From: Psococerastis gibbosa
Taxonomy: Eukaryota > Arthropoda > Insecta > Psocodea > Psocidae
Direction of reading: 5' to 3'
Assembly (NCBI GenBank): GCA_963971405.1
Contig: OZ020487.1
Span: forward strand, 37,855,039 to 37,919,038
Length of the DNA: 64,000 nt
Shown: positions 1-60,676 of the stretch, piece after piece
How positions within the stretch are numbered: position 1 is the stretch's first letter
Layout of the letters: every line of letters begins with the position of its first letter
Notes under the pieces: generated by a model
Seen by the model: only the letters and a program-made list of their open reading frames with translations
The model's database searches: none
Told to the model about the DNA's origin: nothing
Made by a program: the position numbers and the translations under genes

Positions 1-201
1 GGAGACTATTATGTAGATACTTAAATTATCTATTATAAATTAAGTTATAATATGGTAGAGACTTCTTATTGATGTCTCTACCACATTATAACTTAATTTA
101 TAATGGATAAGTGAAGTATCTATATAATAGTCTCCTTAAAACACAAATCTCACCAATTTTTATGCACAAATGAAGAAAAACTGACAAGTGGAATAGCCAC
201 C
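1..201. mobile_element. PIF/Harbinger-like fold-back MITE, left part cut off by window edge
   Basis: Bases 1-135 form a long imperfect hairpin (GGAGACTATTATGTAGATAC pairs with the end at 135). The core is GGTAGAGAC...GTCTCTACC. The right end reads GTGGAATAGCCACC, followed by TCA. The near-complete copy at 53252-53516 shows the family's full structure. The left terminus lies outside the window. Confidence 0.75.
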
Positions 202-999
202 TCAACAGCAATATTTTTCCTAGGTGCCGGGGCAATCACGATTGGTTCAAGTGCAGGCTCAGTCTCCCCTCCGACAGATAAACACTGGGACCTCCACAGC
301 AACCTCATTGCCCTTGTCATCCGTGATTGAGGTAATAGTATAAGTCTTGGTATGTGTATTAAAATATTAGTATTAGAGTAGAAAAGAGTATCTGCACTCT
401 GCAGCAAGTTATGGAGGATGTAGGGGCCAAGACATACGTGGAGCTGAAGAGGGCGTGCCAGGATCGAGGGGACAGGAGGCATCGATGTCACAGGTCACTG
501 CCAACCAGCCAGCCGGCTGTAACTTAAAGAAGAAGATATGTATTAGAAACTCAGCTATATTAGGCTTGCCATTAAGGGAGAGATTTCAAAATCTTTCGTA
601 AATAAGAAAGGACCGTGGACTTTTTACGAAATTAATTAATTTCTCGTTCCACAGCCGCACGCCGCACATTTATGAAAGCGGTCAGATAAAAAATTCATTC
701 AAAATGCAAGCTTTCGAATAAACATTTGAAATATTATTACTTCTGAAAACCCTGATAAAGTGCAGTATACCGTTTTGTCGATTAGTTGTAAATCAGTCGG
801 GGAAATAGACTGCTTTCGGAGAAAGTTTGCCTTTTTCATGTGACTACTTTCACATCTTTGCGACTGTGGAACGAAAAATTTATTAATTGTGCCGTGCAGA
901 AGTCCTTACCGATGAATTTATAAGGGTGGTGGGCACGGCCTTAAATCGAGAAAAAATTAGCGAGAACTGCGAAAATGACGAAATTGAAATTCATTTCAG
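202..999. other. No gene recognised (intron or upstream DNA of gene 1)
   Basis: This is AT-rich unique-looking DNA with no exon, RNA or repeat that I can support. It is either an intron or the upstream region of gene 1. Confidence 0.5.
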
Positions 1000-1218
1000 A
1001 TGCCTTCCGGCACAACGGTGCCAAAGCTGGTACAAGCGGGGTCGAATTCTCCCAAGCCGGTTGGCATCCAAATGATGCAGCTACAGCCTGACGGGACTCT
1101 GAAGCCTTATGTCCCGCAGTCGTTCTCTGCACAAGGCAAACCAATATCCGCCCAAATTCTGCAAGTTCCCGCCAACGCGCAGCTAGCTAATTCAGGACGA
1201 TCTACCCAGATTGTACAG
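1000..1218 (+). CDS. Gene 1 exon (first visible)
   Basis: The exon has 73 codons, phase 0 at the donor. The acceptor is ATTCATTTCAG before ATG and the donor is CAG/GTTAGT. The upstream tract is purine-rich for an acceptor, so the 5' edge is less certain than the donor. It encodes a Q/P/S-rich segment containing MMQLQPDGTLKPYVPQ. Confidence 0.65.
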
Positions 1219-4200
1219 GTTAGTATTTCTCATTCAAACGGGTATTAGCCAAATTGGTTTATAAACATTTGGCGTCATTAACCCGGAACAACGTACTTCG
1301 GCCATGTGATGCGGAACGAAAAACATCGCCTTCTGTATATAATAATCCAAGGGAAGATAGGACAGAGGGCTCCCGCCAGAAGAACATCCTGGTTTAAAAA
1401 CGTACACGTCCGTACACTCACTGGCTCCCTACAATCGAAAATGGACAAGCTGCGGCATGCTTACCATTTGCACATTGTAACAGTTCGGGTACGAGTCACC
1501 ACTGATCATATTAATGGGTGAATTTTGAATGACGCATTATGAATCGCTATGGTCATAATGTAAAAGAAACTGTGCATGAGCTAGTGCATGCTTTCATTTA
1601 TCTATTAGTATAGGTACCGAATTACTATAGCCAGATAATAATTAGTTTTATGCTGCACAATAATAATAGCATGTAATGCAATTGGGCACGTATTATCAAT
1701 AATTTCTTCACAGACATATTCAATTATACAAAACCAAAACTTTGTGTGGGAAAGTAACCTGTTTGGTAATGTTCTATTTATCACCCAAAACAGTAAATTA
1801 AAAAATTGAGCCTTTTTATGTTTTTGTTCCCTACTACTATACTATATCGTGTCCGGGGTAGAGACTCCTTGTTACTGGCCTCAGCCAAACCAACGCCATC
1901 GTCGGTGCATACACAAAAGAAGAGGAAGGTCTCTTCTCGGTGGTGAAAGGATTAGCCGCTAGATGTTTCCACTTAACGTTGCCCGGGGTACGCCCGATCG
2001 GTTTTTGTCCACGTGTATAAAACCGATCTTCGTGGAGGCTCCTTTCTTGTACCCCTTTTGTTCCCTGAAGCAAACTATCAAGGGGATGCAGCCAAGTGGG
2101 TTTTGCTTAAATTAATGAGGACTACAATATAATAATATGTGAATTTAAAATAAATTGTTTGTGTCGTTTTTGTGAGTAAAAAATTCCGTAAATTTTTTTT
2201 TTTTTTTTTTTAAATAGTTTTTAAGGGCATTTGTAAGTTGCATCTTGCTTTTACGCCCGCTGTGTGTGGTTTTAGTAACCCAAAAAAGGAAAAAATGGTC
2301 CCGAGATTTGTTTACAAACCTACATGCTGAATTTCAAAGAAGAGAAACAGCCAGAGATAGAAACAGAACGACTTCAAAATTTGTATATCCGTTTTAATCT
2401 TAGTTTTTTTCCTACCCTGTGTAGGCTGATCTGTAGTGTGCCTTGCGTGATTTTTGCTTTTATTTATTTTAGATGCCCATGGCGGGAGGGAAAACTGGAT
2501 TCTTCCAAATAGAAGGTGTTCCCGGGCAGCCCATGACACTTATGCCTGTCCAGGTAGTGACCAGCTCACAGCCTAATTCTAACACTACCAATTCAATGAA
2601 GGCGTCCGTGCCTACCATTGTCCAGGTTCAAAGTCCTGTTATGGCTTCCAATTTTATACAGGTATACATGATCGATTAACAGTTCACGTATTTTTCTATT
2701 TTTATTACTAATATTATTGTCTGTTAGTAGTTTGTGCAAGGTAGAGAAGTGACTATTGATACTAGAAACACTTCCAGTCTATTTTGGCTTAGCTATAATG
2801 CATGAGTGGACTTAGCAGCGCATGTTGAAATGGTTATCTCTTTTTATGTTCAGCTTTTCGGGTTCAATGCAATATACTGTATTTTAAACTAATTATAAAG
2901 TAATTTCTTTGAAGATTTAATGTGTTTTTTCTCTTTAAATCGGAAGTCTGCCAACATTACAAACTAAGCATATATCGCATCTATACCCGAAAATGACATT
3001 TAAATTAGCGAATTTGGTTTCAATTGGCTAAACTGGAATTCTTTTTCTAGTACACTACGAATGTGCTATTAAGCCCATACACTAAGGCGGGGTTTCCACC
3101 GACCTCGTATTGCAGAATGCACATGACGTTGACGAGGTAGCAGACATTAAAGACTGATTAATGATGTCTGCTACCACGTCAACGTCATGTGCGTTCTGCA
3201 ATACGAGGTCTGTGGAAACCCAGCCTAATCAGGAAGTTCTATTTGGTTGTGATTTGTGACATGCACAACTATACAAATAAATTACTTCATTCAGTGAACA
3301 ATTCCTTGCCAGTTTGCCAATTCGAAAAATCTTCCCTAACTGGACAGACAACAATTTTTATGTACTTTGCCAGGTTGGTTCACCTGCTAAGCAAGTGACC
3401 CCTATTGGCCAGACAGGAAATTCTACGGGTCTTCCGCAAAACAATGCCTCTGGCGGTATGCCTGCCTTGACGGCACAGTACATCGCGAGACCCCGGCAGC
3501 CCCAGCCTCGCTCTGTGCAAAATAAAAGTTCCGACAGCAGTACACTCCGGTTTATAACTCCCGGTTCCGGTCTGAGGCTTGTCAGTAACACTTCGCAGAC
3601 TGCAGCGGTTCAACCGACAATGTAAGTGCTGTAGATATTTTCTTTATAAAATGGTAGAAATAAAATCTCGCGAGAAGTAATGTATGCCCTACCAAAAGGT
3701 GTTCACTGCAGCTAGCAGGCATGGGCATCTGCAGCTCAGTCAATCAACGATTCCACTGTAGTTTCCTCTTGTAAGCGGGTGGTTCTCGCCATAAGCCTAG
3801 CATAGTCGAAATCAACTATTTAGACTGCGAGTCAAGTGCGCAGAACTTACTGTGCCGTAATTCTGTTGTCAGCGCTACCTGTTAAATTGTTCATTTGTTT
3901 TTTATGTTGGAACCCTACAGCGTGAAACGTTGCCTTTGCCAGCTCTCCCTACGTTTCACCCAAATACATAGATTAGATAGTGTCTAGTCGTAAGCTATGT
4001 AAGGCCGATAACGGTGAAACGTAAGGGGAAATATCAAAGGAAATGTGACTACTGACCAACATAAAAAAGAAAATGGCGGCAATTGAAGAAGAAATGTACA
4101 ATCCAGCAGGCAGACTTGCCAGCAGAACTGGCGCAGTATGTTTCTGCCCACACTTAAGTAGCAATCTAAATAGCTTTATCACGACCGTGATTAGCTTATG

Positions 4201-6294
4201 ACAAGCTCCAGGCTCAATCTCAGTCACCACTTTTTTCCGCTTCATTGTTTCTTTGCCTTTGGCTATTATATATGAACATCTGCTGTAGTCCACCTCTTGC
4301 CACATGTTTCCTTTTGTTTTTTGTTTCATTAATTTCTGTCGCAAAACTAATTTTTTAAATTAAATAAAAATAAAAAGCAAAACTCAAAGGCAAATAAACA
4401 ATAAATATGGCCATTTTCGATTCTCCAAATGCAGGGGTCGGGTAAAGTGGAAATGTTAGGGAAATCCTTATGGCATCATTTTTCTAATGGAAAAACTGGA
4501 GTTCTATTCTTCCATCTTACTCAGTTTCCTACTTTCCGTTAGTTTAAACCCAACACAGTGAATGCCCCTTATAAACGAAATTGGAGGTTCACTGTATTTT
4601 ATTTCTACTAAACGTAGTACTGTAGAGTTTATAGACTATTTTGTGTAGATATGCCTTCCATGTGTGGAAATTATTGTCAGCTTTTCGCATGATTTTAGTT
4701 CGTGTTGTTAATTTTGAACCTTATTTAATTGTTATTGTCGGAATGGTATTTCTGTTGGCTTGGGGGTGCTCCAAAAATTTGCGTTTGTTGAGCCCTCGGG
4801 GATAAAACGTCTCTCTCAATCAATTAGTGTGAATAACTGGAAAATATTAATTTATTTGTACAGGGTTCGCAGCACTGGTACGAGAATGCAAACCGCTACC
4901 AGTAATCGTGTAATTAGTGTACAGCAGCAGCAGCCACCTGTGCTCATAAAGCTCGAGGAGGACGAGGACGATATTAAAATGATCGGGCGAAAAAGAGGTA
5001 GGTTTTTTTTTAGACAATTTTTGGAGCAACCTCAGTGGCCAAGCTTTTTTTAAGTAGACACGGAAGTTCGATGACGGGCATCAGAAATTTGTTATGGGAA
5101 CAAATGGGTTGGTGATTGGTTGATGGAAAAACCTGTCTATTTCTGAACTTACTTCAGAAAATTTGCAGGTCACTTGCGTGTCGAGGGGAGAACCGAACAC
5201 ATGCGACAAGCCAGTGACAACAATCTCCTGCAATGGACTTTTGCACCAATCAATTTGCCCCCCAAATATTATATATAATAATCTACCCCGAATATTATCA
5301 GTCACCCTGTCTCCATCATCTGTAATCAATTCCAGCCACCAGGATTTGATGTAAAATATGCGCCTTCTCCACTCCAGACCCCTTGACATCAATAATCAGC
5401 TCCAGTTGCCCGGGTGGGGTACGAGAGCCTCCTCCACTTTTGATTATTCAGCACTTCCTCTGGTACCAGTCACACTCTTTCCTCAATCTGGTTTCTATAT
5501 CTCTCGCTTGGTCTTTTACTTCGTGTTCCCTTTTCTTCCTCCAGCAATTTCCTCGCGCACCTGCTTTTATCCATTAGTTTTAAGTATCCTGCCAATATCG
5601 TCCTTAATCTGGTTTCTTTACCTCTTTTTGCTTTCCAATTTATACGTAGTATAAAAGCTTACATAAAGCTTTGTGACGGTCGAAATTTTCGATTCCGAGA
5701 TTTCAACGATTTGCACGTTTTGAGGTCCCAGGAACCCAAAAAAGTGGTTTTTACGAAATGTCTGCCGGTCTGTCTGTCTGTTCATCGATTTCCGGACAAA
5801 CTACTCGGTCGATTTAAATGAAATTTGGCATGTAGGTTTATAAAAATCCCCTCCCGTGATATTAGGAAAATTATTTACCATGAAATTAATCATTTTCTCT
5901 CTTTACTAATCGATAAATTGGAAAGCATGTTCGAGTAAACTCGGACCGGTTCTTATTAATTGGATATATTTCTCCTGCGTGTACCGTTTCTTCCCGACAA
6001 ATCACTGCGCGGCATTGTCCATTCTCTTCTGCGTTCGAAGCATTGTAGTCTCGCTATTCTCAATCCAGAACTCAACCATCCTGTGACGATAATAGTAACG
6101 ATATTATCAGTGTCCAATACATGGCATTGTAATGGTTTTCAGAGACTATAGACATTCTTCACGGTGAACTTTCGGCGAAAGAAACTGCGGAAGGCTGGCG
6201 GTACAGTGTAAAAACACCCTCCGGGAAAGACCACGTACTCACCAACGAGGAAGTGGAGCGTCGTAGAGCTGCTAATAACGGTCGCATGTGCTAG
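1000..6294 (+). CDS. Gene 1: Gln/Ser/Thr/Pro-rich putative nuclear regulator, five exons, N-terminus uncertain
   Basis: Join of 1000-1218, 2473-2661, 3374-3621, 4864-4997 and 6143-6294. The 942 nt form one continuous frame of 313 codons plus TAG, and every junction is AG before the exon and GT after it. Residues 1-240 are low-complexity and rich in Q, S, T, P, V and N, as in activation domains. Residues 239-242 are QQQQ. Residues 247-250 (IKLE) fit the SUMOylation consensus, followed by an acidic run (EEDEDD) and a basic patch (GRKR, 260-263). The C-terminal 50 residues are a compact charged segment with one Trp (282) and one Tyr (284), ending RMC. No zinc finger, homeobox or bZIP is visible. 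The first exon begins with ATG directly after an acceptor AG, so this Met may be internal and the true start may lie upstream of the window. A transcription or chromatin role is inferred from composition only. Confidence 0.72.
1291..1521 (+). pseudogene. LINE ORF2 C-terminal fragment
   Basis: The frame gives YFGHVMRNEKHRLL, then IIQGKIG and RRTSWFKNV. This matches the (Y)LGH(V/I)(L/M)R-(D/N)-K-Y-x-LL ... QGK ... GRR-x-SWLKN tail pattern of jockey-like LINE reverse transcriptases. The last third overlaps sequence shared with the repeat at 14246-14340. It lies in a gene 1 intron. Related fragments are at 43974-44188 and 61245-61450. Confidence 0.7.
1575..2345 (-). repeat. Interspersed repeat of the TGCTTTCCAATTTATA family, split by a 223-bp insert
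   Basis: Matches to the copies at 32090-33262 and 49237-49849 include the GAAGCAAACTATCAAGGGG and ACCTACATGC segments. The copy is interrupted at 1833-2055. It is diverged and sits in a gene 1 intron. Confidence 0.6.
1833..2055 (-). mobile_element. Short retroposon-like insert with 11-bp target duplication
   Basis: The direct repeat TTTTGTTCCCT at 1822-1832 and 2056-2066 brackets 223 bp that interrupt an older repeat. A clean direct repeat of this length is typical of non-LTR (LINE-mobilised) integration. On the minus strand the insert ends in TATAGTATAGTAGT, which could be a degenerate tail. I see no convincing tRNA boxes. The family is unknown. Confidence 0.55.
2473..2661 (+). CDS. Gene 1 exon
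   Basis: The exon has 63 codons and is phase 0 at both ends. The acceptor is TTTATTTTAG and the donor CAG/GTATAC. It encodes a V/T/S/P/M-rich stretch including GQPMTLMPVQVV, continuous in style with the flanking exons. Confidence 0.7.
3086..3225. mobile_element. PIF/Harbinger-like fold-back MITE (140 bp), TSD TAA
   Basis: It is flanked by TAA at 3083-3085 and 3226-3228. The ends read GGCGGGGTTTCCACC...GGAAACCCAGCC. The whole element is a near-perfect hairpin with core GAGGTAGCAGACATT...GATGTCTGCTACCACGTC. A 3-bp TWA duplication with a GG...CC end is the PIF/Harbinger signature. It lies in a gene 1 intron. Confidence 0.85.
3374..3621 (+). CDS. Gene 1 exon
   Basis: The exon has 248 nt, with acceptor TACTTTGCCAG and donor AAT/GTAAGT. 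It leaves two bases (AT), which are completed by the G of the next exon to form Met219. The segment is Q/S/N/P-rich with a short RPRQPQPRS basic-proline stretch. Confidence 0.75.
3690..3770 (+). repeat. Interspersed repeat shared with 40765-40835 (inverted)
   Basis: The segment around GCAGGCATGGGCATCTGCAG and CTCAGTCAATCAACGATTC recurs in inverted orientation near 40775-40830. Neighbouring sequence at 3990-4075 also resembles 40405-40500 (GATAACGGTGAAACGTAAGG type). This is part of an unnamed repeat. Confidence 0.5.
4864..4997 (+). CDS. Gene 1 exon with acidic/SUMO-like segment
   Basis: The exon has 134 nt, with acceptor TTATTTGTACAG and donor GAG/GTAGGT. It encodes the glutamine run, the IKLE consensus, the acidic cluster and the start of the basic GRKR patch. 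It leaves one base (G), completed by AG in the last exon to give Glu264. Confidence 0.8.
5629..5930 (+). repeat. TGCTTTCCAATTTATA-family element, near full-length short copy
   Basis: It starts TTGCTTTCCAATTTATACG and ends CGATAAATTGGAAAGCA, so the termini are inverted repeats. The interior carries GTTTTGAGGTCCCAGGAACC and GTCTGTCTGTCTGTTCATCG, which recur in all copies. It lies between the last two exons of gene 1. Confidence 0.7.
6143..6294 (+). CDS. Gene 1 terminal coding exon
   Basis: The acceptor is ATGGTTTTCAG. The exon reads through the conserved-looking charged C-terminus to TAG at 6292-6294. The bases straight after the stop (GTAAAG) look like a splice donor, so a 3'UTR intron or an alternative isoform is possible. 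A candidate AATAAA lies at 6600-6605, inside the loop of the inverted repeat at 6557-6684. Confidence 0.75.
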
Positions 6295-6556
6295 GTAAAG
6301 TTTTCATCAAAATGAATGGCAACTGACACTAATATGAGTCTTGTTACTGTGTTATTGTTTTCAGTATTTGTATTTTTATATTCTCAGTATTTAGGTTTTA
6401 ATGTGCCCAGTTTATTGCTAATGACCAGTATTACACGCACGAATAATTATTACACCCAATCATTATCACCTTTCCTACCATATCGTTTAAAAGATCACTT
6501 ACCCATTCAAACTATTTTAAAACTGGCATTAAAATTAACCTCCCCCAGTGGGCCTG

Positions 6557-8503: not shown

Positions 8504-8886
8504 GGTGCCCATTCCATTGACCGGCTAGGGCTATTTCCAACAACGGTGACGTGGTAGCAGACACTCAAGACTTAGGTGGCGTTTCCACTGACCTCGCATT
8601 GCAGAATTGACGGAAATGTTTATTTTCCTCTATGCCATAGTTAAAATTGATCAATGATCATACAGTAAAATCACAAACAAACAAACTAAAATTAAAAAAT
8701 GGCTTCATGGGATATGTTAATTACAAACATTTTAATAGATTTCTATTAAAAAAAAAAAAACATTTCCGTCAATGTCATTTGTAATCTGCAATGCGAGGTC
8801 GGTGGAAACGCTACCTAAGTCTTGAATGTCTGCTACCACGTCATCGTTGTTGGAAATAGCCCTAGCCGGTCAATGGAATGGGCGCC
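8504..8886. mobile_element. Composite PIF/Harbinger-like MITE (outer element)
   Basis: The ends GGTGCCCATTCCATTGACCG and CGGTCAATGGAATGGGCGCC are inverted repeats flanked by TCA and TTA. Inside is the stem GACGTGGTAGCAGACA...TGTCTGCTACCACGTC. A second MITE (8575-8815) lies in its loop. The same composite recurs at 59568-59948. Confidence 0.85.
8575..8815. mobile_element. Inner MITE nested in the loop of the composite element
   Basis: The ends are GGTGGCGTTTCCACTGACC and GGTCGGTGGAAACGCTACC, bordered by TTA on the left and TAA on the right. The arms contain CTCGCATTGCAGA, like the arms of the element at 3086-3225. The interior is AT-rich and not palindromic. Confidence 0.8.
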
Positions 8887-10640
8887 TTAAGAGTGAGTCA
8901 TTATTACGCAATTGAATACAATTGCCAGCAGCACAACAATGGTGTACCCAAGCCTACAAAGCAGCAACATTTTTAGTTTACAATCTACATGCAAATGATG
9001 AACTAAGTCAAGTTGTTAGCTATTTTACTTTCCTCGTAGAATCTAGATTATTATAATTCAATGAAACAACGCTGACCCCAACAAGGGATAAAAGTGAGCA
9101 AAAAGTAAGTAACGCAGTAAGCTTGTATTTCTAGAAGAAAAAAAAATTAAAAAGTGATATGATGCCCTTCTCTGATAAGTTAAGCATGGGCGCCATTTTC
9201 GGGATTCGACCCGTCTATCACAACGAATATTTCTATTGGAAAATAGTCCATTAAAAAATCGTTAAAAAATATATATATAGTTTTTCATTGAAACTATAGT
9301 CGTTGATAGTATTGGCCTATTTTGAAACTGCAGAATATAATCCTGCGAATTAATAGATAAATACAAAAACCAATTTCTTTGGATTCCAATGTTATGATTT
9401 TTTTACATGCAATAAATGTATTTGTGATTAGCATCTGCAGTTGCCATTGTCCGCCTTGTATTATATTGTAAAAATTGTAACTATTAGTGAAAATAGGCTA
9501 TTTTATAGCAATAAGGCCTGGCTCGTCCTTTCTTCATTTTACACAATCATTCATTTCATGAATTTATCTTAGTTTTTTAATTAATTTAAATATTTTTTAT
9601 ACCTTGGTTAATGCGATTGGAACGCGGCGACTGGCTTATTTGTAATTACATTATACCCATCACTGCGATTGAAAGCAATCGTGCTATTATGGTTAGCTTA
9701 TCGAGGGGTTGCCCAACCTTTGTCATGCCTCATAAGTTTTCTATAAATTTGAAATATGAAAGACAGCTTGTTAAGGCGACTATTCCACTTCTCAATTTTT
9801 CTTCAACATTGATAATGTCATTGACAGAAATATTATTTTTACATCACATTCCACTTGTGTTCAATCATTTTCAATTGTTTAAGTTTGTCCTAGCGGACAA
9901 TTTAGACTTATTTTTATGATTTAAATTGAGAAATAATTTGTTCGTTCTCAAGAATTAAAGTAAAATTATTTATCTTGTCAAGACGACGCCATTTTAAATT
10001 TGTTTCGTTATTTGTTATTTTTTTGCAAAGCGTTGTTTTTATTCTATGATCAGTGATCAATTTTAACCACCGCGGGGCTATAGACCATTATCAATATGGT
10101 GGCTAGTGGACCTACACAAGCTAAGCAGACTTTTGGCCGGGTCCAGGGATCCATTCTGCTATACTGCAATCTTTAAGACTTCGGTATTTCTTACGTTGGT
10201 ACTTATCTATGATAGTTGTTGGCTTGTGGTTAACGGGTGCCCTGTAAGGGATATTATGGCTCCTGCCATTCCAGTTAATATATTTCTATGATTATAACAT
10301 GCAGATCATGACAGAAAATTTACAAGTTTAATAACCGCCTAAGATGACGTGGAACTATATTGGTCACACCTGGATTAATCGGATAAGTAATTTTTTTCAT
10401 TTAATTTATTGTTGTAGAGGGCCATCTCATATACAATATCATAGGGTATTTTTAATTTTTAAGAGTTTCTTATATAGTCTGCAGAACAAGAAACTTATTA
10501 ATTTCATGTTCGTCATGGTTTGAAAGCTCTACCTTAAGGAGAAATAGTAAGGTAGCTTGTGATCGTATTGTGATGGCGTGTATTTTGCCAATTAAACAAG
10601 CCACGTTTCCATTATTGTACATGAATTTTGTTAATGCATC
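8887..10640. other. No gene recognised
   Basis: AT-rich DNA with scattered stop-rich ORFs. Nothing in codon pattern or similarity supports a host exon, and no clear repeat ends were found. Confidence 0.5.
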
Positions 10641-10647
10641 TCACTAT

Positions 10648-12951: not shown

Positions 12952-13228
12952 GGCTCCAAACGGGCTCGCGCCAGCCAAATGGCGCGTCCTGTTCCATTTG
13001 GCGTTAGCGCCATTTTTTAGAGGGGTCATCACGACTGCGCTGAACCAGTCGCTCCAAATCTTTCAAATAGTACCATGTGGCGATATGGAAGAGGTACTTT
13101 TACACTGTACAATTTGAAAGATTTGGAGCGACTGGTTCAGCGTACTCGCGTGATGACCCTTCTAAATGGCGCTAACGCCAAATGGAACAGGACGCGCCAT
13201 TTGCCTTGGCGCGAGTCCGTTTGGAGCC
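12952..13228. mobile_element. Large fold-back MITE (GGCTCCAAACGG ends)
   Basis: The ends GGCTCCAAACGGGCTCGCGCC and GGCGCGAGTCCGTTTGGAGCC are inverted, and nearly the entire 277 bp folds back on itself around a short AT-rich centre. The arms are GC-rich (GGCGCGTCCTGTTCC). No clean target duplication was seen. Confidence 0.8.
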
Positions 13229-13270
13229 CTCGTGAATGGCCAGCTTAAGTTAGTTGGGATATTTAGTTTA

Positions 13271-18535: not shown

Positions 18536-19308
18536 CAGGTTCATGACAACCTATCATTGAGGAGCCGTACATGTATAACAGATGAAATGTTCAACTAAAT
18601 TTAGATCTATTGTATGTGGCGTTCACTAACACGATAAACCACAGATATGGAAGTCTGGGAATATGATGAAAATACTAAAAATTTGTACACTTCGATGATT
18701 GATGTCAATGAGTCTTAGGGACATGTTAAACATCAAAATTCAGAGGAAGAGCATTTCTTCTATGTCAGGAGTCGTCGACAATCAAAATTTCGTCTAAAAC
18801 TTTGAATTTGTACAAAATGCAAATGTGTGGGAGTCATTTAGTGTGTTAAATAGCGTTGAGGCCCCTTACCAGTTACCACTTACCTCTCAACAACATACAA
18901 TAGGTACAGGTAAGAATTCGGGGTGGCCAATAGAAGGTCAGGCGAACCCTTTTAGTTTGAATAGTTTTGTCGCTTTTCCTAAATATGAGGACCATGTAGG
19001 CGATTTGTCACTTGAACTGTAAATGCAGGAGAGGCAAAAAACATTTAAAATCTAAATGTTTCTACATTATGGGTTGTAATAATTTAATTAATATTCTTTG
19101 TTAATATAGGAATCACATTAGACTGTTTATTACATTTTCGTAGTAGTCAGTGCGAAAAATCCAGAGATACCACCAACTCAATAATTACTATTTGTGAAAA
19201 ATCGCCTTTTCCATTCATGCTATTCATATAAGTCAGTCTCACGAAATATGCCAGAGGCTTAATTACTTCGGCTTACCATTTTTTGGGGGCTTCAACCCCG
19301 GACAGGTA

Positions 19309-19510
19309 TAGTCCACGCAAAATGAGAAAAGTATAGACATGGAATGTTTTGATCTTGTTCAACACTATAAAAATATTCCTTGCACCATTTTGTGTTACCT
19401 TGTTGCATTGGATGCAAGGCATAACAAAAATTGTGCAAAGAATATTTTTACAGTGTTGCTCAGGATCAAAACATTCCATGTCCATACTTTTCTCATTTTG
19501 CGTGAACTAT
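19309..19510. repeat. Fold-back element with arms of about 95 bp
   Basis: TATAGTCCACGCAAAATGAG... pairs with ...CTCATTTTGCGTGAACTATA, with only scattered mismatches. The centre is TTGTTGCATTGGATGCAAGG. It is a MITE-like palindrome of unknown family. Confidence 0.75.
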
Positions 19511-19598
19511 AACCAAGTGCTGTTCTATCTAGGTAGTGCAAAATTAAAATTAATGATTTAAAACGTTTAAGGCATTAATTAAAGGAGACAAAACAGGG

Positions 19599-29050: not shown

Positions 29051-29440
29051 TTAAGAGTGTACAGCCTGTAGGAAATTGGAAGCCCGAAATTTAATATTTT
29101 TTATTTTTTATTTAATTAATTAAGCATGTTATTAAAGACTTGGCTCATCAAAGTTGTAGAAGACTACTTCATGCATCATATTATAAGATATTTTTAATTT
29201 TCGAAATTGTAGTTTTTTCATAAACATGCCAATATTTTATAAACAATAACTTCACGTATTATCGATTTTATAAAAAAATCTACAATTTCGAAAAGTAAAA
29301 ATACCTTATTATATGATGCATGAAGTAGTCTTCTACAACTTTGATGAGCCAAATCTTTAATAATATGCTTAGTTAATTAAATAAAAATAAAAAGTATTAA
29401 ATTTCGGGCTGCCGATTTCCTACGGGCTGTACACTCTTAA
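29051..29440. mobile_element. TTAAG-ended fold-back element, complete copy (390 bp)
   Basis: The ends TTAAGAGTGTACAGCCTGTA and CGGGCTGTACACTCTTAA are inverted and the arms run about 170 bp, including TTGGCTCATCAAAGTTGTAG and its inverse. It may use a TTAA or TA target. It resembles nothing I can name. Confidence 0.8.
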
Positions 29441-33625: not shown

Positions 33626-34022
33626 CCCTTAGCTACGTAGAAAATGAGCACCCCAAAATTTGTTGTTTTTATGGACTTTTTGTATTTTATTTTATTAACA
33701 AAGCAAGTCATTAAAGATATGGCTCATGGAAGTTATAGAAGACTACTTCGTACATCATATAATCGGGTGTTTTTACTTTTCGGTTTTGTAGTTCTTCCAA
33801 AAATCCCAGAATATGCATAATTTTAGTCTGTTCTGGTATTTATGAAAGAACTAAGGTACCAAAAAATTAATATTTCCTATTGAATGATGCATGAAGCAGT
33901 CTTCTACAACTTCCACGAGCCAAATTTGTAATTACTTGCTTTGTTAATTAAATAAAAAATAAAAAGTCAATAAAAACAACAAATTTTGGGGTGCTCATTT
34001 TCTACGTAGCATGTCCTCTTAA
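33626..34022. mobile_element. TTAAG-type fold-back element
   Basis: The arms CTACGTAGAAAATGAGCACC and GGTGCTCATTTTCTACGTAG are exact inverted repeats. The internal block GGCTCATGGAAGTTATAGAAG is likewise inverted. The right end is TCCTCTTAA; the left end is shortened. Confidence 0.75.
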
Positions 34023-43789: not shown

Positions 43790-43929
43790 GGTGGTTATTC
43801 CACCGACGTCCATAGTGACAGTAATGGTGGTATTGACGTGGTAGCAGACATTTTTAGACTGTCTTTAATGTCTGCTACCACGTCAATACCACCATTACTA
43901 TCTCTATTGACGTCGGTGGAATAACCGCC
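43790..43929. mobile_element. PIF/Harbinger-like fold-back MITE (140 bp)
   Basis: The ends GGTGGTTATTCCACCGACGT and CGTCGGTGGAATAACCGCC are inverted. The core is GACGTGGTAGCAGACATT...AATGTCTGCTACCACGTC. ACTAA occurs directly on both sides (43785-43789, 43930-43934), so the duplication may be longer than TAA. Confidence 0.85.
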
Positions 43930-53251: not shown

Positions 53252-53516
53252 GGCAGATATTCCACTGGTCGATTTTACTTCAAATTTGATTTGAGATTTT
53301 TTGTTCGTTTTGTTTTAAGGAGACTATTATGTAGATACTTAACCTATCTATTATAAATTAAGTTATAATATGGTAACAGACGTCAAATGTGATTAACAAG
53401 AGTCTGCTACCATATTATAATAGGTAAGTTGAGTATCTACAATCTACATAATAGTCTTCTTAAAACAAAACAAACAAAAAATCTCAAATCAAATTTGAAA
53501 TAGTGGAATAGCTGCC
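53252..53516. mobile_element. PIF/Harbinger-like fold-back MITE (265 bp), TSD TTA
   Basis: TTA flanks both sides (53249-53251, 53517-53519). The ends are GGCAGATATTCCACTGG and TAGTGGAATAGCTGCC. The arms contain TCAAATTTGATTTGAGATTT and AAGGAGACTATTATGTAGAT with their inverses. The core is TGGTAACAGAC...GTCTGCTACCA. It is the full-length relative of the element at 1-201. Confidence 0.9.
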
Positions 53517-53982: not shown

Positions 53983-53989
53983 ACTCCGG

Positions 53990-55387
53990 CCAGAGTTTCA
54001 GATTGGAACAGCAGTCTCGGAGATTCTCTGATGATAAAATGCCAAAAACGCGGATTTTAATTTTTTTTAGCGATAGCGAATTTCCGACTGGGACAATTAA
54101 AAATCAATTTTGACAGCAAGACAGATTGTTGTGTAACGTATGATTTAATTTGGCCAGTGGCTTGGGAGGAAAGCTGTTCACAATAAATCCCATACACTCT
54201 CCTTTATAAAAGAAACAGTACAGTGTTTTCACATTTTGGTCCGAACGATCTAAAGTTGTAGTTGCAACTTGTACGGTATTTTAAGTTCCAATGGTGGTTA
54301 AACATACAGTATTTTACGTTCTTTAAGAAAATATCAGCAGGATAGCTATAACCTATCTAGGGGAAATCGATGTCATGCGGGGAAAACACTTAAGTACGGA
54401 AAATAGAAAATGCTTGTGCTCTTTTTATTTTCCATTAGCCCTTTCTTTAAAAAAAATAATAATAATAATAATACACAGAAATTTTCTCGACCATGCGGCA
54501 ATTTGAATAGCGGTAAAACAAAATTGATGACTTAAAGTAGGGCTCAAATACTCCATAGAGTTAATAATGCATTAGCGTACTAATTCGATTTGATTACATT
54601 TTAAAATAAAATTTAATTAATAATTTCTTTAATTGTAGCCTCTATTTCAACTGTGTTTATATCAGGATTAGGGGCTGCAAAGGGGACTTTCGGGGGCTCA
54701 AATCTTATATAGGCAGTATCTGGGAATTTTCAAATGTTGGCATATGAAATGCTAATAATGGCTCATTTTGAGTTCTCTCATTTGCCATATTAATTTTAAC
54801 CCTTTACCTTTCAAATAAATATTTTTTTTTAAAATTATAAAAAAGTAATTCCATATAAAATAATGGCCACAAATAGCAATGGCTTAAATTCTTAAGATTG
54901 GGCGCGAATATATTGTAAAACATAGGGCACCATAAACATACGATATAATCATATTTTGTAATTTTAATAATTTTAAAATCTTACACCTGAGTGTTACGGG
55001 AAAATTGCTGGATTGCCCAGAGGTATACAGGTGATAGAAGAGAAATTAAAAAAAGCTATGAACTCTGGGAAAAGCCATGCTTGTGTTAGTTACCTACTTA
55101 ATGTTTTTTTAAGGTTTAGCCGTGTTTGTTGATGTGATTTGAGTTATAATACCCAGTTGAACATTTTGTATAGGCTAGTGACATTTTTTTTATAAGACCG
55201 GCCCCGTTTCATATTAACCGCAGCCTTCTCAAGTTGCCACTGCCTCTATTTATGTAAAAATGGAAGTACGTGTATGTTATGTAACGCATTTCATGGAATA
55301 ATCTTGGAGCATCAAAGTGAAATTGCTACCATAGTCTCGTTTTCGTACCCCTCGTACTGGACTTGAATATTGTTGATTCTGTTGCAG
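53990..55387. other. Upstream region of gene 2; no exon recognised
   Basis: AT-rich DNA with a TAA/AAT microsatellite near 54458-54472. A 5'UTR exon of gene 2 should lie here or further upstream, but I cannot place it. Confidence 0.45.
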
Positions 55388-55457
55388 GTGCTGTGTATGA
55401 CTACCATGGCAACAGACGGTTATCCGTGGGGGCACTGGCCACCCCTCCATATGCAAG
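55388..55457 (+). CDS. Gene 2 exon 1 (start-containing)
   Basis: The acceptor TTCTGTTGCAG shows that at least one exon, probably 5'UTR, lies upstream. Coding runs from 55406 and leaves one base (G) at the donor CAAG/GTATTT. The frame is fixed by the fit to exon 2. An ORF also exists in another frame here, but it hits a stop in exon 2. Confidence 0.7.
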
Positions 55458-58400
55458 GTATTTACAACATACAACCAATCCTATCAATCACTGTTTTAGC
55501 TACAACTTAATTTCGACTGATATGGTCCAGTCTACGAAGCGACAATGAGGTTCATTTGTGACGTCATTTTGTAGATGGCAGCACCAGTTGCACTGATATC
55601 AAAGCGTTGATTTTTCCATAAGCCTCAATACTATTTTAAAATTATTTTATTTATGTATTATTTTAAAGTGATATTTTTCTATAAATCATGGAGAATATAT
55701 ATATTAAATGATATGCAGCGAAATAAGGTCCAGGCATAGTAAAAATATTATAAAAAATATTAAAATAATTAATTAGATGCTAAGAGCTTAGCTTTCACAT
55801 GCAAACGGCGGCCATTTTGAATAATATGGATATCGGTTTGTCGTCAGCGAACCTGGTGACCAAAACTGTCCCTACAGAACCTCATTGAGCTAGAAACTAA
55901 AAGCATGAGACAAATGCCTTTATTTATAAAACATTATTCTTCAGTATATTGTGCCTAGTCTCGCCACATGTTTTTGAACTGACTTTGGAATTGTTGCCAG
56001 CAGGGTTACAAGTTTTTATTTTAATGCAAAATTCCTAACCTTCCTGGGCAATAATACAATGATACTATGAGAGAGGTGTTTTGTTAACAATAGAAAAATC
56101 TCAGGCAAATTAATTTCGAAACAGTTCTCACATTTGGAACGTTACTTATTAGCACGAATATTGAAGCAAAGCAATTGAAGGAATTATCAACAGAAAAAAA
56201 TGTCGTACCTAGAATCTAACAACCTAAGTTCAGGTCACCAATTTGGCTTCAGACAAAAACGAATTAACGAAGGGGCTATCTTTGTATATTGGCCGGTGAA
56301 ATACATAAAAAATATTGACGATGAAAAAAATTTAATCGTATTTTTGGATTTGGCTCATGCTTTCGATACTATTTCTCATAAATTGCTTCTATAGAAACAT
56401 TATAGACTGGGAATCAGAGGAATCGAGCTCGAATTGTTTAAAAGCTACAATATTTGTCCGATAGAGCTCTAATAAATAATATATACAGTGACTAAACAAC
56501 GGTAACTTTTAGAGCTCCACAAGGCACAGTATTTGGTCATTGTCTTTTCCTTGCATACTTTAACTCTATTTGTAATATAAAGCTCGACCATGGCAAACTT
56601 CTCGCTTTTGCCGACGACACTGCTGTTAACGTTGCCTCTGACTCTTGGGAAGAAACCTAGAAATGTAACCAGAACCCAAAATCCGTCAAAAGTTGGTGTG
56701 ATGGAGTGTAACTTACGATGTTGTCACATCTTCTCAGTTCTCAGCCAAATATGAATATCACCGTTATATGATATCAAAAGTAAACTCTTACACCATTCCC
56801 TATTCAGAAATAAAATACGGACATTCCAGCAATGTTGGAACCCATAAAACAAAACCTTAGTTCGGAAGGGGGGTTAATGACACAATTGGCCGGTTTCAAT
56901 CAATTCAAGAATCGCCCTCTTCTAGCCCTGATCTGAACCCTTTACAATAGTTTCCACATTTTTTAACGAATTATATAAGGGCATGTTCTACCAATCACAA
57001 ATATTTGTAGTCTCTGATATGAGATTTGAAGAAAGTAGCAGCCGAAATGCCCTTGGAGGTGGTGCTTGCCGCGATCGATGGGATATTCAATATAAAGGTT
57101 AAGTTTTCATAATTCACTCATTTCAAGTCAATTTGTTGGTTTATTAGCCGATGGCATAGAAAACGCCAGTTCAAAAACATATGGCGAGACTAGGTAGATA
57201 AATGAATAAATATTAAACTATAGACTATCATTTCCTTCCAGCTACAGGGCCATACGCTCCTCCACATTGGCAAGGGAGTATGCCTTCAAGTGGCAGCTGC
57301 ATGTACACTATGCCACAAGAATATAGGAATGAGAAGCCTCCTTTGACTCAGTTACAAGAACTTGCCAGTGTATTTCCGTCGCCCGTCAAGACAGAAGTAC
57401 TAGGAAGTGATGACCACGGGCTCATGCTGGGTGCAGACTTTCGAGAGTGCGACTCTGGCTTTGGAGGGAAAACTGAGAGGGACATCGATCGGGAATGGTG
57501 CCGAAGAAAGGCTGACGCGGACAGGGAGAGACATCTGTGGCACCAGGCGAAGACAGACCGTGCTACTCCTGTGTGGCATCACACGGCGAAACAGAACTGT
57601 GAGGATAACGCGTGGCACCATAGGAAGACGGAACCTGCGACATGGTATTCATCGACATCCCCTGATCGCAAGGCGGAGACCAACAATTGGTAAGTTCCCA
57701 TTGATTTTAATCACCATACCACTGAAATGTAGAGCGGGGGAAACAGGACTGTGACGAGAAAGCATGTAAGAGCTCTATTGGCCATGATGGGGCAATACAT
57801 TCTGCCGGTGTTGGTTATGTGATGTTGTCAAAGTCAATAATGACTAAAGACAGAGAATTGAGTTTGTTTTTATTTACTCACTAAATCTGAGGCACGGTGG
57901 CTTGCCCAGTGTGAAATTGCCTACCTTAAATATTCCTTTTGTTTCAGGCTGTACTCCAATAAGTCCGAACCCGAAAGTAATTGTTGTTCTGAAAGATGTG
58001 GTGACAGTGACCTTCAGGGCACTCGGGAATGCGATTCCGGATTTGCCCAGCCTTTTCCCACCAAAGAAGAGCCAGATGTTTTCACCGAGCTATCTGCTGC
58101 TGGTGAAGGAGACTCTGGTTGTGCTACAGATATCCCTCCTCCTACAGGAGATTCTGACTCAGGTTGTGCTGACTTAACAGGTCACGAGGAGGAGCCTACC
58201 AATGCTCTCCCAGGTTTCTATCAGGTAAGGAAATCATTTTTTGTCTCATCGACTGATTATGTTTTATTCACACTTGGTAAACTTAATATTTTGATTTACT
58301 ACAAAAATGTTGACACAAAGTGGAAACTAACAATGGGTTATGTAATTTTTATAGACTTTAGAGTTGCCTGCCCCTTTTTTCGAACCATTGACATAGCTTG

Positions 58401-59499
58401 TAGAAACACAGTGATTCTTATTGGTAATCTTGACTTGCTGAAACTTGCAGTCTGACCAATCTGAACACTGCACTGCACCCAATTTACTGCTATGTTCGAT
58501 GGTCTTAATGATCGCGTACGTGATAGATACTGCTAGAAACCTCTCAGACTTTTGTAATTGGTGTTGAGTCGATGCTCAGAAAAAGTGCAGTTGGCAGAAA
58601 ACTGGACTTTGAAACGGAAGATCGAGGTTCGAAACATGACATAAAAGAACAATATTTCGCCCGGCCAAGGTAACTTTATCGTCCCGGGTAGATGAAAAAC
58701 ACGACATTATGAGTAGAAGAAGAACAACGCAATGATCCACTGTGGATGATTGCGTTGTTCTTCTTCTACTCATAATGTTCTCAAAGTTCCACGAAGTCAC
58801 CAAGGAAACTCTCACAAGAAAAACACGACATGTTGCTGACCGCAACATCCCCTAAATAGAGCGGTGGTCAAAAGAAAGTAACTTCTACCAGTCCTTGGGT
58901 TGCCGTGCAACTGATTTTTTTTTCTGTTCCCTTCCCGATAACTCGGTATCTATCCAATACATAACACATAAAGAATATTTTTCTTTTCCCAGGCTTTCGG
59001 TACGACGGAGATCGGTCGTTTTTCGAGAAACGACTTTTTTACCCAACCGTCCCCTCCTCGTGTCGTTGAGCCTCCACCTATTCCTGAACCGCAACGGAAA
59101 ACTACGCGCAAACCACGATCGCCCCGAGTGAAACACGTGCGGAAGGAACGGTCTGATTCGCCCAAGTGCAAGGATCCCATGCCTAGTGTGCCACTGCCAA
59201 CCCCGGACGGTCCCCCTCCTCCGTACACTCCGCGCGTATGTACGCCCTACCACAATTCATTCTGTGAACCCCCCAAATTATGTACTGAATACTCTCACCC
59301 CTATGCTCGGGGTTTGCCACCGCCACCATATTCAGCATGCTTCCGCCCATTCTCACCGTTTCCAGTGGACTATGGACAGTCGTGGCACGAGCCGCGATGG
59401 CCGCCGCCGTATCGTCATCAGCCGCTGCAGCAAAGCTACCAACAGCAACCACAGTGGACCAGTGCCAACGTCTATCCATTCATGCAACTCAACTATTGA
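55406..59499 (+). CDS. Gene 2: Trp-repeat, DSG-motif and PPxY-containing protein, 427 aa
   Basis: Join of 55406-55457, 57242-57689, 57948-58224 and 58993-59499 (1284 nt, 427 codons plus TGA), with every junction GT-AG and one open frame. The start is the ATG at 55406 in context ACCATGG; another in-frame ATG lies at 55397. The N-terminus is aromatic and proline-rich (YPWGHWPP). VKTE at 66-69 fits the SUMO consensus. RECDSGF occurs at 85-91 and 193-199, bracketing six Trp-led repeats (W103, 117, 129, 142, 152, 167; spacing 10-15). DSGC follows at 222-225 and 237-240. Residues 295-315 are strongly basic. PPxY motifs end at Tyr337, Tyr372 and Tyr399, and are known WW-domain ligands; DSG motifs can be phosphodegrons. 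The protein is probably an intrinsically disordered regulator. I do not recognise the family. Exon 55388 enters in phase 0, so upstream exons are possible. Confidence 0.8.
55543..55887. mobile_element. MITE-like element in gene 2 intron 1
   Basis: CAATGAGGTTC and GAACCTCATTG are inverted termini 345 bp apart. The right end (GTGACCAAAACTGTCC...) recurs at 52535-52567 next to the hAT-like element. A TGACGTCA palindrome lies near the left end. Confidence 0.5.
55952..57196. repeat. Inverted repeat pair flanking a LINE fragment in intron 1
   Basis: TGCCTAGTCTCGCCACATG...TTTTTGAACT and AGTTCAAAAACATATGGCGAGACTAGGTA are inverted and 1.2 kb apart, enclosing the reverse-transcriptase relic. They could be ends of an element or a fold-back later invaded. 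Confidence 0.55.
56200..56665 (+). pseudogene. LINE reverse transcriptase fragment
   Basis: It reads GHQFGFRQKRINEGAIF, then LIVFLDLAHAFDTISHKLLL, a stop, GIRGIELELFKSY, and after a frameshift RAPQGTVFGHCLFLAYFNSI...LLAFADDTAV. These are the GFRxxxST, FLDLxKAFDTIxHxxL, PQGTVLGPLLF and FADD motifs of RT domains 2-5. Stops and frameshifts make it dead. It lies within gene 2 intron 1. Confidence 0.9.
57242..57689 (+). CDS. Gene 2 exon 2 (Trp-repeat exon)
   Basis: The acceptor is CCTTCCAG and the donor TTG/GTAAGT. The exon has 448 nt and encodes residues 18-166, including the first RECDSGF and five of the six Trp-led repeats with a K-(T/A/S)-(D/E) core. The two last bases (TG) combine with G of exon 3 to form Trp167. 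Confidence 0.87.
57948..58224 (+). CDS. Gene 2 exon 3 (DSG-rich exon)
   Basis: The acceptor is TTTTGTTTCAG and the donor CAG/GTAAGG. The exon has 277 nt and ends in phase 0. Read in the frame set by exon 2 it is fully open and acidic, with Cys-rich (CCSERC) and repeated DSG motifs. The longer ORF in another frame at 57902-58177 is a shadow that crosses the acceptor. Confidence 0.85.
58705..58777. repeat. 73-bp near-perfect palindrome in gene 2 intron 3
   Basis: Arms of 36 bp with one mismatch (CATTATGAGTAGAAGAAGAA at the left, its inverse at the right) meet at ATCCACTGTGGAT. A 14-bp direct repeat GAAAAACACGACAT occurs at 58694-58707 and 58818-58831 around it. Confidence 0.9.
58993..59499 (+). 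CDS. Gene 2 terminal exon (proline-rich, PPxY)
   Basis: The acceptor is TTTTCCCAG and the stop TGA is at 59497-59499. It encodes 168 residues: a Pro/Ser stretch, a basic segment (KTTRKPRSPRVKHVRK), then a P/Y-rich tail with three PPxY motifs and Q-rich ends. It is relatively GC-rich compared with its surroundings, as expected for coding sequence. A MITE begins 68 bp after the stop. Confidence 0.9.
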   Translation, partial: AFGTTEIGRFSRNDFFTQPSPPRVVEPPPIPEPQRKTTRKPRSPRVKHVRKERSDSPKCKDPMPSVPLPTPDGPPPPYTPRVCTPYHNSFCEPPKLCTEYSHPYARGLPPPPYSACFRPFSPFPVDYGQSWHEPRWPPPYRHQPLQQSYQQQPQWTSANVYPFMQLNY

Positions 59500-59567
59500 C
59501 GAGATCTCCTTCATTAGCAAAATCTTAGTCAATAGGAATAATCCACATGTGAATATTAGTCTCCTAA

Positions 59568-59948
59568 GGCGCCCATTCCATCGACCGGCTAGGGCTATTT
59601 ACAAAATCGGTGACGTGGTAGCAGACATTCAAGACTTAGGTGGCGTTTCCACCGACCTCGCATTGCAGAATGCAAATGACATTGACGGAAATTAGAATTT
59701 TTCTTTTTATAGAAATCCATTGAAATGGTTGTACTTAATATATCCCATGCCGCCATTTTTTTAATTTTGATTTGTTTGTGATTTTACTGTATGATCATTG
59801 ATCAATTTTAACTCTGGCATAGAGGAAAATAAACATTTCCGTCAATTCTGCAACGCGAGGTCGGTGGAAACCCCACCTAAGTCTTGAATGTCTGCTACCA
59901 CGTCACTGTTTTTGTAAATAGCCCTAGCCGGTCGGTGGAATGGGCGCC
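59568..59948. mobile_element. Composite PIF/Harbinger-like MITE after gene 2, TSD TAA
   Basis: It is flanked by TAA (59565-59567, 59949-59951). The ends are GGCGCCCATTCCATCGACCG and CGGTCGGTGGAATGGGCGCC. The stem is GACGTGGTAGCAGACATT... and its inverse, with the inner MITE at 59639-59877 (GGTGGCGTTTCCACCG ends). Same composite as 8504-8886. It starts 68 bp after the gene 2 stop. Confidence 0.9.
59828..59833 (+). promoter_or_regulatory. Candidate poly(A) signal of gene 2, inside the MITE
   Basis: AATAAA lies 329 nt after the stop codon, within the inner MITE. Another AATAAA is at 60243-60248. Which is used cannot be decided from sequence. Confidence 0.35.
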
Positions 59949-60514
59949 TAACACATTGTAAATGATATTGTAATAAGTCAATTTAGTTTACAATGAGCAA
60001 GGGACGGTTTTGGGACCTTTGGATTTCTTCTTTCTTTTTATAATTACTTTACTTTGGTCGGCAGTGATGGTGCATCGGGTCTAAAGTATTCTACAAATTT
60101 AGAGATGGGCGGGGCACATGTAAAATTAAAATGGGGGCGGCGGTCTTTGCGTAAATAATGATAATAATCATTGGAAGCAGTCAACATTAATTTTGATATT
60201 TCTCCTGCTCAAACCAGTTATTCAGCAGTAAATGTGTCTGTAAATAAATGTAGGCAATTTACTGTTATAAGGTTATGTACTGTCAGTACAGTGGCTTCAC
60301 GTCCAATTCGTACGGCAACTTCTGTGCAGCAATACCTGTGGAAAAAATTAATCTTTGAGACACAAAGAAGCATCTTATGCTCGATTTAACCCTAAGAAGA
60401 ATATAAGATTTTGTACAATGGTGTGCGACAAATTTGCGGCAACCCTCAATTATATGATACAATATTATTTTCCAGGTAGGCTACTCATAGTTGATACCTT
60501 GAAGACCTCTTGTA

Positions 60515-60676
60515 GGCGGGTATTCCACATACGACAATCGTCAATGAAAAATTGAAAAATGACGTTTTAGCAGACATTAAAGACATACTAAAAATTCTGC
60601 TACCACGTCAATTTACGTCATTTTGACGTCATTCTTCAATTTTTCATTGACGATTGACGTATGTGGAAAGGGCGCC
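60515..60676. mobile_element. PIF/Harbinger-like fold-back MITE (162 bp), TSD GTA
   Basis: GTA flanks both sides (60512-60514, 60677-60679). The ends are GGCGGGTATTCCACATACG and CGTATGTGGAAAGGGCGCC. The core is TTTAGCAGACATTAAAGAC...TTCTGCTACCACGTC. The arms (GTCAATGAAAAATTGAA) differ from all others here. Confidence 0.87.

Follow-up and report, generated by a model that had tools for sequence, protein, structure and literature searches.

The genome examined here harbors a very abundant group of hairpin-like elements, which are non-autonomous MITEs of the PIF/Harbinger type. Each is a near-perfect palindrome composed of a tip (GGCG-N4-TTCCAC), an arm, an inner box (TTGACG-T-GGTAGCAGACATT) and a short asymmetric loop. 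It is quite possible that they form an old, radiating PIF/Harbinger MITE group in which tips and box are recognised, one arm is at times copied onto the other, and arms are exchanged by conversion. Their classification as MITEs follows from their short, non-coding sequences, high copy number and terminal inverted repeats.

Seven elements were singled out by an earlier note in the window, the whole 64-kb stretch of DNA that was analysed. They represent five arm types, because 8504-8886 and 59568-59948 carry a single arm type and 1-201 and 53252-53516 have their inner part in common. Complete elements measure 140-383 bp, and no ORF of at least 180 aa is present in the window. The elements and those nested within them are as follows.

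1..201: element E1, truncated by the window start; right end GGTGGCTATTCCACTT (reverse complement), degenerate core GGTAGAGAC; inner part common to 53252-53516.
3086..3225: A-type palindromic MITE, 140 bp; flanks TAA/TAA; cores 3136-3145 (+) and 3166-3175 (-); middle of the arm CGACCTCGTATTGCAGAATGCACATGACGTT.
8504..8886: E-type palindromic MITE; cores 8553-8562 (+) and 8828-8837 (-); a second element nested at its centre.
8575..8815: nested element without core, inside E-type 8504-8886; A'-type arms (CCTCGCATTGCAGA..ATTGACGGAAAT); interior similar to the leader and MADF start of the coding element L072.
43790..43929: B-type palindromic MITE, 140 bp; cores 43840-43849 (+) and 43870-43879 (-).
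53252..53516: long-arm type; flanks TTA/TTA; cores 53372-53381 (+, 1 mismatch) and 53402-53411 (-).
59568..59948: E-type palindromic MITE with nested element; flanks TAA/TAA; cores 59617-59626 (+) and 59890-59899 (-).
59639..59877: nested core-less A'-type element of the same kind as 8575-8815, in the opposite orientation.
60515..60676: F-type palindromic MITE; flanks GTA/GTA; core TTTAGCAGAC on the left and GGTAGCAGAA on the right (60595-60604, -).

The ends, mirrored arms and central inverted GGTAGCAGAC core attributed to all seven are present in six (3086-3225, 8504-8886, 43790-43929, 53252-53516, 59568-59948 and 60515-60676), with GG..TTCCA ends and GGTAGCAGAC at up to one mismatch on one or both arms; in element 1-201, which the window start truncates, GGTAGAGAC stands in place of an intact core. 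In 53252-53516 the distance between core and ends is 105-120 bp (versus about 50), and no GACGT precedes the core. Both nested elements sit exactly at the E-type palindromic centre, between GACTTA and TAAGTC; serial insertion into hairpin loops, one of the causes originally suggested, is therefore seen in this one type, as core-less elements.

The structure of end, arm and core is real and present across the genome. The window holds 13 matches to GGTAGCAGAC at up to one mismatch against 1.73 expected, a count reached by none of 100 shuffles. Exact palindromic cores number 2,595 in the 409-Mb genome and zero for the reversed-pattern control, and arms of the form TTCCAY-N20-50-GGTAGCAGAC number 28,702 (14,283 + 14,419) against 5 for the control, well away from the background frequency that the earlier note had named as the outcome that would count against it. 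Among 24 TWA-flanked ends taken from fetched loci, outside targeted positions and excluding the window, 10 carry the core at up to one mismatch, compared with 598 of 20,000 random positions, targeted elements included. The core is thus frequent, yet not universal, among TWA-flanked ends.

Flanking sequences and coding relatives bear out the Harbinger-like nature and the modular layout proposed for these elements. Equal flanking 3-mers occur in 33 of 68 complete elements, a set that includes repeated copies dropped later (shuffled mean 18.6, maximum 28 in 2,000), and comprise 16 TAA, 14 TTA, 1 GTA, 1 TTC and 1 TTT, as for the 3-bp TWA target duplication of PIF/Harbinger. Another nine of the 68 are flanked by TAA on one side and TTA on the other, in either order, a pattern not expected from a clean TWA duplication. 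The coding element L072 matches PF13359 (DDE_Tnp_4; E 1.1e-27) and PF10545 (MADF; E 6.5e-8), and the J-type arm is its end adjoining the MADF gene. Relatives of L072 at 74-80% lie at C1:12833923, C1:12792289 and C12:37021547. A coding relative with a HARBI1-type DDE transposase, a Myb/MADF gene and the same ends is accordingly present for one L072 end and one arm type, which partly answers the expectation of an autonomous Harbinger; at the DDE_Tnp_4 loci L065-L071 and L073, the end-plus-core repeat was not found as the element's own terminus. Locus L068 has a related TIR, AGCCGCGTCTCCACCAACCG, with TTA on both sides.

Several other candidate coding partners were considered. An F-type MITE lies at a fixed internal position in the L005-L024 elements, which we take to be ISL2EU-like THAP/YqaJ Harbingers (the search covered DDE_Tnp_4 only) and whose interior is what the fetched loci cover; common sequence continues past the MITE on both sides, ruling it out as their ends. 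A gapped pattern of MADF-like start plus Trp matched 53 places, by eye mostly nested inserts and none coding-like. On C1, a J-core position and a DDE copy lie 3.4 kb apart, which was discounted as probably a chance pairing on a rough estimate.

The arms were said to be entirely different between elements, and this does not hold: the arm types have diverged into a graded series and are not unrelated. In the 57 elements whose two arms belong to one type, arms of different types share a mean identity of 0.58 (range 0.41-0.82); shuffled sequence gives 0.49, and the two arms of one element 0.94. Between-type identities are alike for left-left (0.577), right-right (0.583) and left-right (0.581) pairs, so there is no sign of distinct left-arm and right-arm lineages. 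Single linkage at 75% joins 62 of 63 elements into one chain via intermediates and separates only the odd element L090, to which alone the identities of 0.48-0.50 with the rest belong. Average linkage at 0.30 divides the same 63 elements into 11 arm types, four of them single arms, mirrored within elements; they are therefore not copies of one full-length consensus, even though nearly all chain together.

The two arms of an element agree with each other. Of 63 elements, 57 have both arms of the same type (19 on average after shuffling, 29 at most), and in 36 the two arms have an identical outer tetranucleotide (7.5 on average after shuffling, 16 at most). Of the 126 arms, 113 are closer to their own partner than to any other-type arm.

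Conservation varies along the arm. Its length is nearly fixed, usually 31 nt from TTCCAY to GACGT; the middle spans 29-33 nt in 113 of 126 arms and 17-25 or 34-47 nt in the other 13. In 31 of 74 arms, selected for a length of 50 with TTCC at position 9, mean information is 1.62 bits at positions 1-4, 0.97 at 21-40 and 1.42 at 41-50; in this sample, the middle is less conserved than the tip, inner arm and loop. Loop class I is found with arm types 5, 4, 9 and 8, and class II with types 7 and 3 and one type-5 element; type 3 has the loop class of type 7 (arm identity 0.55), although its arms resemble type 5 more (0.66). Because the asymmetric loop spans different arm types, the idea that each type arose as a new inverted duplication of one end is rejected.

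Variants within arm types indicate when the two arms may have become alike. In types 7, 5 and E pooled, variants with four or more carriers are mirrored in 99 of 155 carriers, against 2 of 73 for private variants. Frequent variants are mirrored in 41 carriers and one-sided in 29 for type 7 (private: 2 and 38), in 34 and 10 for type 5 (private: 0 and 21), and in 24 and 17 for E-type (private: 0 and 12). The contrast is less clear in the looser type 9, with 4 and 4 for frequent and 11 and 18 for private variants. Type 7 variants with two or three carriers are one-sided in 28 cases and mirrored in 5. Mirrored states also exceed those obtained by re-pairing arms: 48 versus 16.5 in type 7 (maximum 31), 44 versus 15.5 in type 5 (maximum 37), 44 versus 14.2 in type 9 (maximum 34), and 24 versus 8.7 in the 22 E-type pairs (maximum 20).

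With frequent variants largely mirrored and private ones largely one-sided in three of the four types, arm equalisation seems to take place in the lineage that spreads, not in resident copies. Tips and centre stay similar across the group, whereas the intervening stretch has changed repeatedly, for the most part in mirror image, which suggests that one arm was copied onto the other in copies that spread. The symmetric arm copying proposed earlier gains from this contrast, although frequent one-sided variants exist. Two frequent variants, each close to the core, are never mirrored: type 7 arm position 50 (11 left, 1 right, 0 both) and E-type position 34 (4 and 5, 0 both).

The arm-copying mechanism that we infer would combine several steps. 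Transposase recognition would conserve the tips, recognition by a MADF/Myb-like partner would conserve the subterminal inner box, and the spacer would be constrained chiefly by length. In propagating copies, one arm may occasionally be copied onto the other via snap-back pairing with template switching or mismatch correction, timed to replication or to gap repair coupled to transposition, and the unpaired loop would escape correction. Conversion with other Harbinger ends could also swap arms up to the TTGACG junction, so that a MITE could acquire a coding element's arms while retaining its own centre. A doubtful extension is that one palindromic MITE lineage repeatedly re-arms, its centre being kept and both arms replaced in mirror image from whichever Harbinger is active, by arm-to-arm copying coupled to transposition.

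Ordinary internal deletion offers a different, and rather unlikely, explanation, in which every arm type descends independently from a coding Harbinger with tip, spacer and core already in its TIRs, the core being the inner end of the TIR and the mirroring inherited. The graded series of arm types resembles diverging TIRs, the J arm is the end of a coding element, and the near-constant spacing fits a two-part TIR. Mirroring could also come from coding elements whose two ends became alike by other means. However, the single coding end read, on the MADF side of L072, has no core behind its J arm. Among 40 core-less J copies that were scored, 26 have a second inverted end match, and in 25 of these the match takes in the core-less continuation (query to 66-67). 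The loop is no part of a TIR and is common across arm types, asymmetry included.

The same arms are found both with and without the core: J arms number 680 (exact) without it and 1,510 with it at up to three mismatches. The element at L054:2028-2176 combines the two forms, with a core behind one arm and none behind the other. Since core-less J and A' elements with the same arms have multiplied too, the core or inner box is not strictly required. The core may plausibly be under selection as a binding signal.

Independent grafts, in which a core palindrome entered several different Harbinger TIR pairs by insertion or recombination, are improbable. The A/A', J and L054 arms do share a similar junction (TTGACG / TTGAAGG) with two inner continuations, and the core of the long-arm type sits in another context, but every graft must strike the same junction on both sides, and the intermediates linking arm types favour gradual change. 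Selection for matched ends, in which elements bearing the same variant on both arms transpose best and double mutants spread, likewise predicts mirrored frequent and one-sided private variants, but it is very improbable, as it needs an identical independent mutation twice at many weakly conserved spacer positions and frequent unmirrored variants occur.

If a MITE does re-arm in this way, it would be a replicating module that tracks changing transposases. The group as a whole bears on how MITEs originate and continue to amplify and why long terminal repeats remain alike. The two arms of an element act as mutual internal controls: a mirrored variant points to a change made while the lineage spread, a one-sided variant to decay of the inserted copy. 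Arms exist in the tens of thousands, so that it should be possible to measure directly how often arm copying happens, how long its tracts are and which template it uses, and the kept tip and core beside a freer spacer predict the recognition targets of the two Harbinger proteins. Angel, a group of short hairpin elements of fish for which hairpin-driven amplification has been proposed, is similar in being a foldback MITE and in the idea of hairpin copying.

PIF/Harbinger MITEs (Tourist-like, such as mPing, and insect PIF with a MADF gene) likewise have a 3-bp TWA target duplication, are short, high-copy and gene-free, and have a coding relative with a DDE_Tnp_4 transposase and a Myb/SANT-MADF gene. 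In contrast, the present elements are full-length palindromes with a common centre and many mirrored arm types, and their inverted repeats reach about 60 bp, against about 15 bp in PMC9710019. That paper describes a 9-bp subterminal motif in Harbinger3_DR bound by the Myb-like protein, and binding of ORF1 to the TIRs is reported in PMC2836001.

The earlier note knew of no comparable family, but Galileo, a foldback-like transposon of the P superfamily in Drosophila, offers a precedent. As presented in PMC3573991, its TIRs define subfamilies, the two TIRs of one copy are 98-100% identical, and some copies combine both TIRs of one subfamily with the centre of another, for which ectopic conversion is proposed; matched TIRs and TIR/centre mixtures in two-TIR elements are thus found there as here. 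Galileo has a 7-bp flanking duplication, long internally repetitive TIRs and 170 copies in that paper's table, whereas the present elements fall outside the P superfamily, with a 3-bp TWA duplication, a DDE_Tnp_4 relative, arms of about 50 bp and 28,702 arms by one pattern.

The core reported by the earlier note holds in six of its seven window elements, each matching GGTAGCAGAC to within a single mismatch on one or both arms; the seventh, 1-201, is truncated and has GGTAGAGAC. Within the window (G000:C12:37855039-37919038; 64 kb, GC 38.5%, from a genome of 409 Mb), GGTAGCAGAC occurs at 13 places at ≤1 mismatch, against 1.73 expected. Genome-wide, there are 2,595 exact palindromic cores with halves no more than 30 nt apart (control 0) and 28,702 matches to the arm pattern TTCCAY-N20-50-GGTAGCAGAC (control 5). 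E-type arms (GACCGGCTAGGGC and variants) account for most of the arm-pattern matches listed, with other types making up 19 of about 100 at the start of contig C1, as judged by eye and with one place entered twice. Element 3086-3225 (A type) returned 1,830 first-look candidates as a query and element 43790-43929 (B type) returned 538, 40 being scored in each case. Single-strand folding is much better than that of shuffled sequence for two whole elements (z = -18.9 and -19.7) and part of a third (-12.5).

The material comprises the window and 119 loci fetched from the same genome. Loci L035-L064 were picked as best matches to element 3086-3225, so the A type (type 7) is over-represented, while the first 50 entries in the list of palindromic cores for contig C1 supplied L001-L004 and L074-L119. 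Both ends were recognised in 68 of 81 core pairs, leaving 13 others. Of one larger repeat only the L076 copy was retained; dropping the other five (L080, L088, L091, L102 and L110) brought the 68 down to 63 elements. Loci L077, L078, L079 and L081 also contain a larger repeat, almost identical in all four; its core is set in a TATAATAT context and mirroring reaches only a short way beyond it. Letters A-J are our own assignments, and type numbers come from clustering of the arms.

The same three bases flank 33 of the 68 elements, TAA or TTA in 30 of them (shuffled mean 18.6, maximum 28; 2,000 shuffles), and represent the PIF/Harbinger target duplication. Mixed TAA/TTA or TTA/TAA flanks occur in nine of the 68, below the 18.8 expected by shuffling. 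Some flanks at L051, L055 and L057:2276 are inverted rather than direct repeats (in L055, AAGCCTAA on one side and TTAGGCTT on the other), possibly reflecting palindromic target choice.

The arms, described in the earlier note as unrelated, prove to be related. Single linkage at 75% places 62 of the 63 elements in one chain, making the arm types parts of a graded series, and identity of arm middles between types averages 0.58 (left-left 0.577, right-right 0.583, left-right 0.581), compared with 0.49 against shuffled sequence and 0.94 within an element (57 elements with both arms of one type). Average linkage at thresholds from 0.20 to 0.40 gives 20, 15, 11, 7 and 5 arm types. At every threshold, 55-58 of the 63 elements have the same type on both arms (shuffled means 16-31, maxima 25-42); at 0.30, six elements combine two types, and the partner is closer than any other-type arm for 113 of 126 arms. 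Of the 126 arms, 113 have middles of 29-33 nt.

Two loop classes occupy the centre, ATTAAAGACAGTCTAAAAAT (I) and ATTAAAGACTTATTAATGAT (II), both asymmetric, with identities of 0.67 and 0.56 to their own reverse complements. Class I loops are seen with arm types 5, 4, 9 and 8, and also in six mixed elements. Class II goes with types 7 and 3 and is present in a single type-5 element as well. The two type-3 elements share loop class II with type 7, and their arms are closer to type 5 (0.66 vs 0.55). Had each type arisen by its own new inverted duplication, the same asymmetric loop would not have formed again, and the centres therefore appear to have been passed on by descent while the arms changed.

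Mirrored variant states exceed those obtained after re-pairing arms between elements in type 7 (48, with 95 one-sided, vs 16.5), type 5 (44, with 39, vs 15.5), type 9 (44, with 43, vs 14.2) and the E type (24, with 29, vs 8.7; 22 pairs).

Table. Mirrored/one-sided carriers, with variants grouped by number of carrier elements.
Four or more carriers: type 7, 41/29; type 5, 34/10; E type, 24/17; type 9, 4/4
Two or three carriers: type 7, 5/28; type 5, 10/8; type 9, 29/21; E type, none of this frequency
One element (private): type 7, 2/38; type 5, 0/21; E type, 0/12; type 9, 11/18

With types 7, 5 and E pooled, 99 of 155 frequent-variant carriers are mirrored, compared with 2 of 73 private ones, and this contrast is the most valuable part of the finding. 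Type 9, a loose group of eight elements, displays little of it. One variant at type 7 arm position 50, which adjoins the core, accounts for 12 one-sided frequent carriers, and one at E-type position 34, eight bases from the core, for nine; neither is ever mirrored. Recurrent mutation may account for the low-frequency one-sided variants of type 7. On the simplest reading, arms were equalised in the spreading lineage and decayed independently later, with the innermost bases copied less often.

Arms occur in two inner contexts, with the core and without it. The genome contains at least 150 DDE_Tnp_4 and at least 113 MADF matches, including several adjoining opposite-strand pairs. At coding locus L072, a DDE_Tnp_4 transposase gene is convergent with a MADF gene, beside which the end reads GGCCCCCATTCCACATACGTACAACGTCAATGAAAATTATGAAATTGAAGG (a J arm) followed by ACATTTCAATTTT, with no core there. 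A second locus, L068, pairs DDE_Tnp_4 with MADF (MADF confirmed) on opposite strands; it has a related TIR and is flanked by TTA at either end. J arms adjoin the core at 1,510 places (≤3 mismatches), with three opposite-strand pairs ≤300 bp apart among the matches listed, and adjoin ACATTTCAATTT at 680 exact places. Of 40 scored copies related to the L072 end, 26 have another match, inverted and 45-58 bp long, which extends into the core-less continuation in 25 of the 26; these relatives are elements that lack the core and have mirrored ends. A' arms lack the core in the nested elements 8575-8815 and 59639-59877, whose interiors resemble, by eye, the L072 leader and gene start, as well as in L063, L064 and further matches. 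One element, L054:2028-2176, has the core on one side and the core-less continuation on the other. Among 24 TWA-flanked ends in fetched loci, outside the targeted positions, 10 have the core within one mismatch; the remainder include A', the TTTAGCAGAC form and a long-arm type.

Other repeats occur in the same material. Near-identical copies of a DDE_Tnp_4 family (L005-L024; e.g. L005:2574 and L006:781-931) share an internal F-type MITE at a constant position, which is exactly where the sequence shared with L025 stops; a second reading frame of this element resembles YqaJ. In the window, a further TAA-flanked GGCGACTATTCCACTT end at 9772 lacks the core within 90 bases. Long inverted repeats at 33632-34010, 29051-29440 and 19307-19511 (arms 58-180 nt) are likely further foldback elements, and 12973-13206 and L065:2288-2498 hold a similar inverted-repeat element (ATGGCGCGTC.TGTTCCATTT.GCGTTAGCGCCATTT).

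The data support conservation at the tip and in the inner arm, a spacer that varies more freely at near-fixed length, mirrored frequent variants, a common loop and a separable core; we infer the causes behind these features. With its 10 bp lying some 50 bp in from the tip, the core would suit a putative subterminal site for a Myb-like partner. Such a partner is reported to bind a 9-bp subterminal motif in Harbinger3_DR (PMC9710019), and ORF1 is reported to bind the TIRs (PMC2836001). However, core-less relatives moved too, which counts against the core as a needed protein site. Snap-back pairing during transposition-linked repair could copy one arm onto the other, and such copying would explain why frequent variants are mirrored and why the loop is spared. 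The titles and abstract openings searched contained no description of mirrored arm turnover in Harbinger MITEs, and one may exist elsewhere. The finding is real and beyond the ordinary, yet it amounts to a variation on behavior already known from foldback elements and MITEs. A precedent exists in Galileo, for which PMC3573991 describes TIR-to-TIR conversion as well as copies whose pair of TIRs has been exchanged around a different centre.
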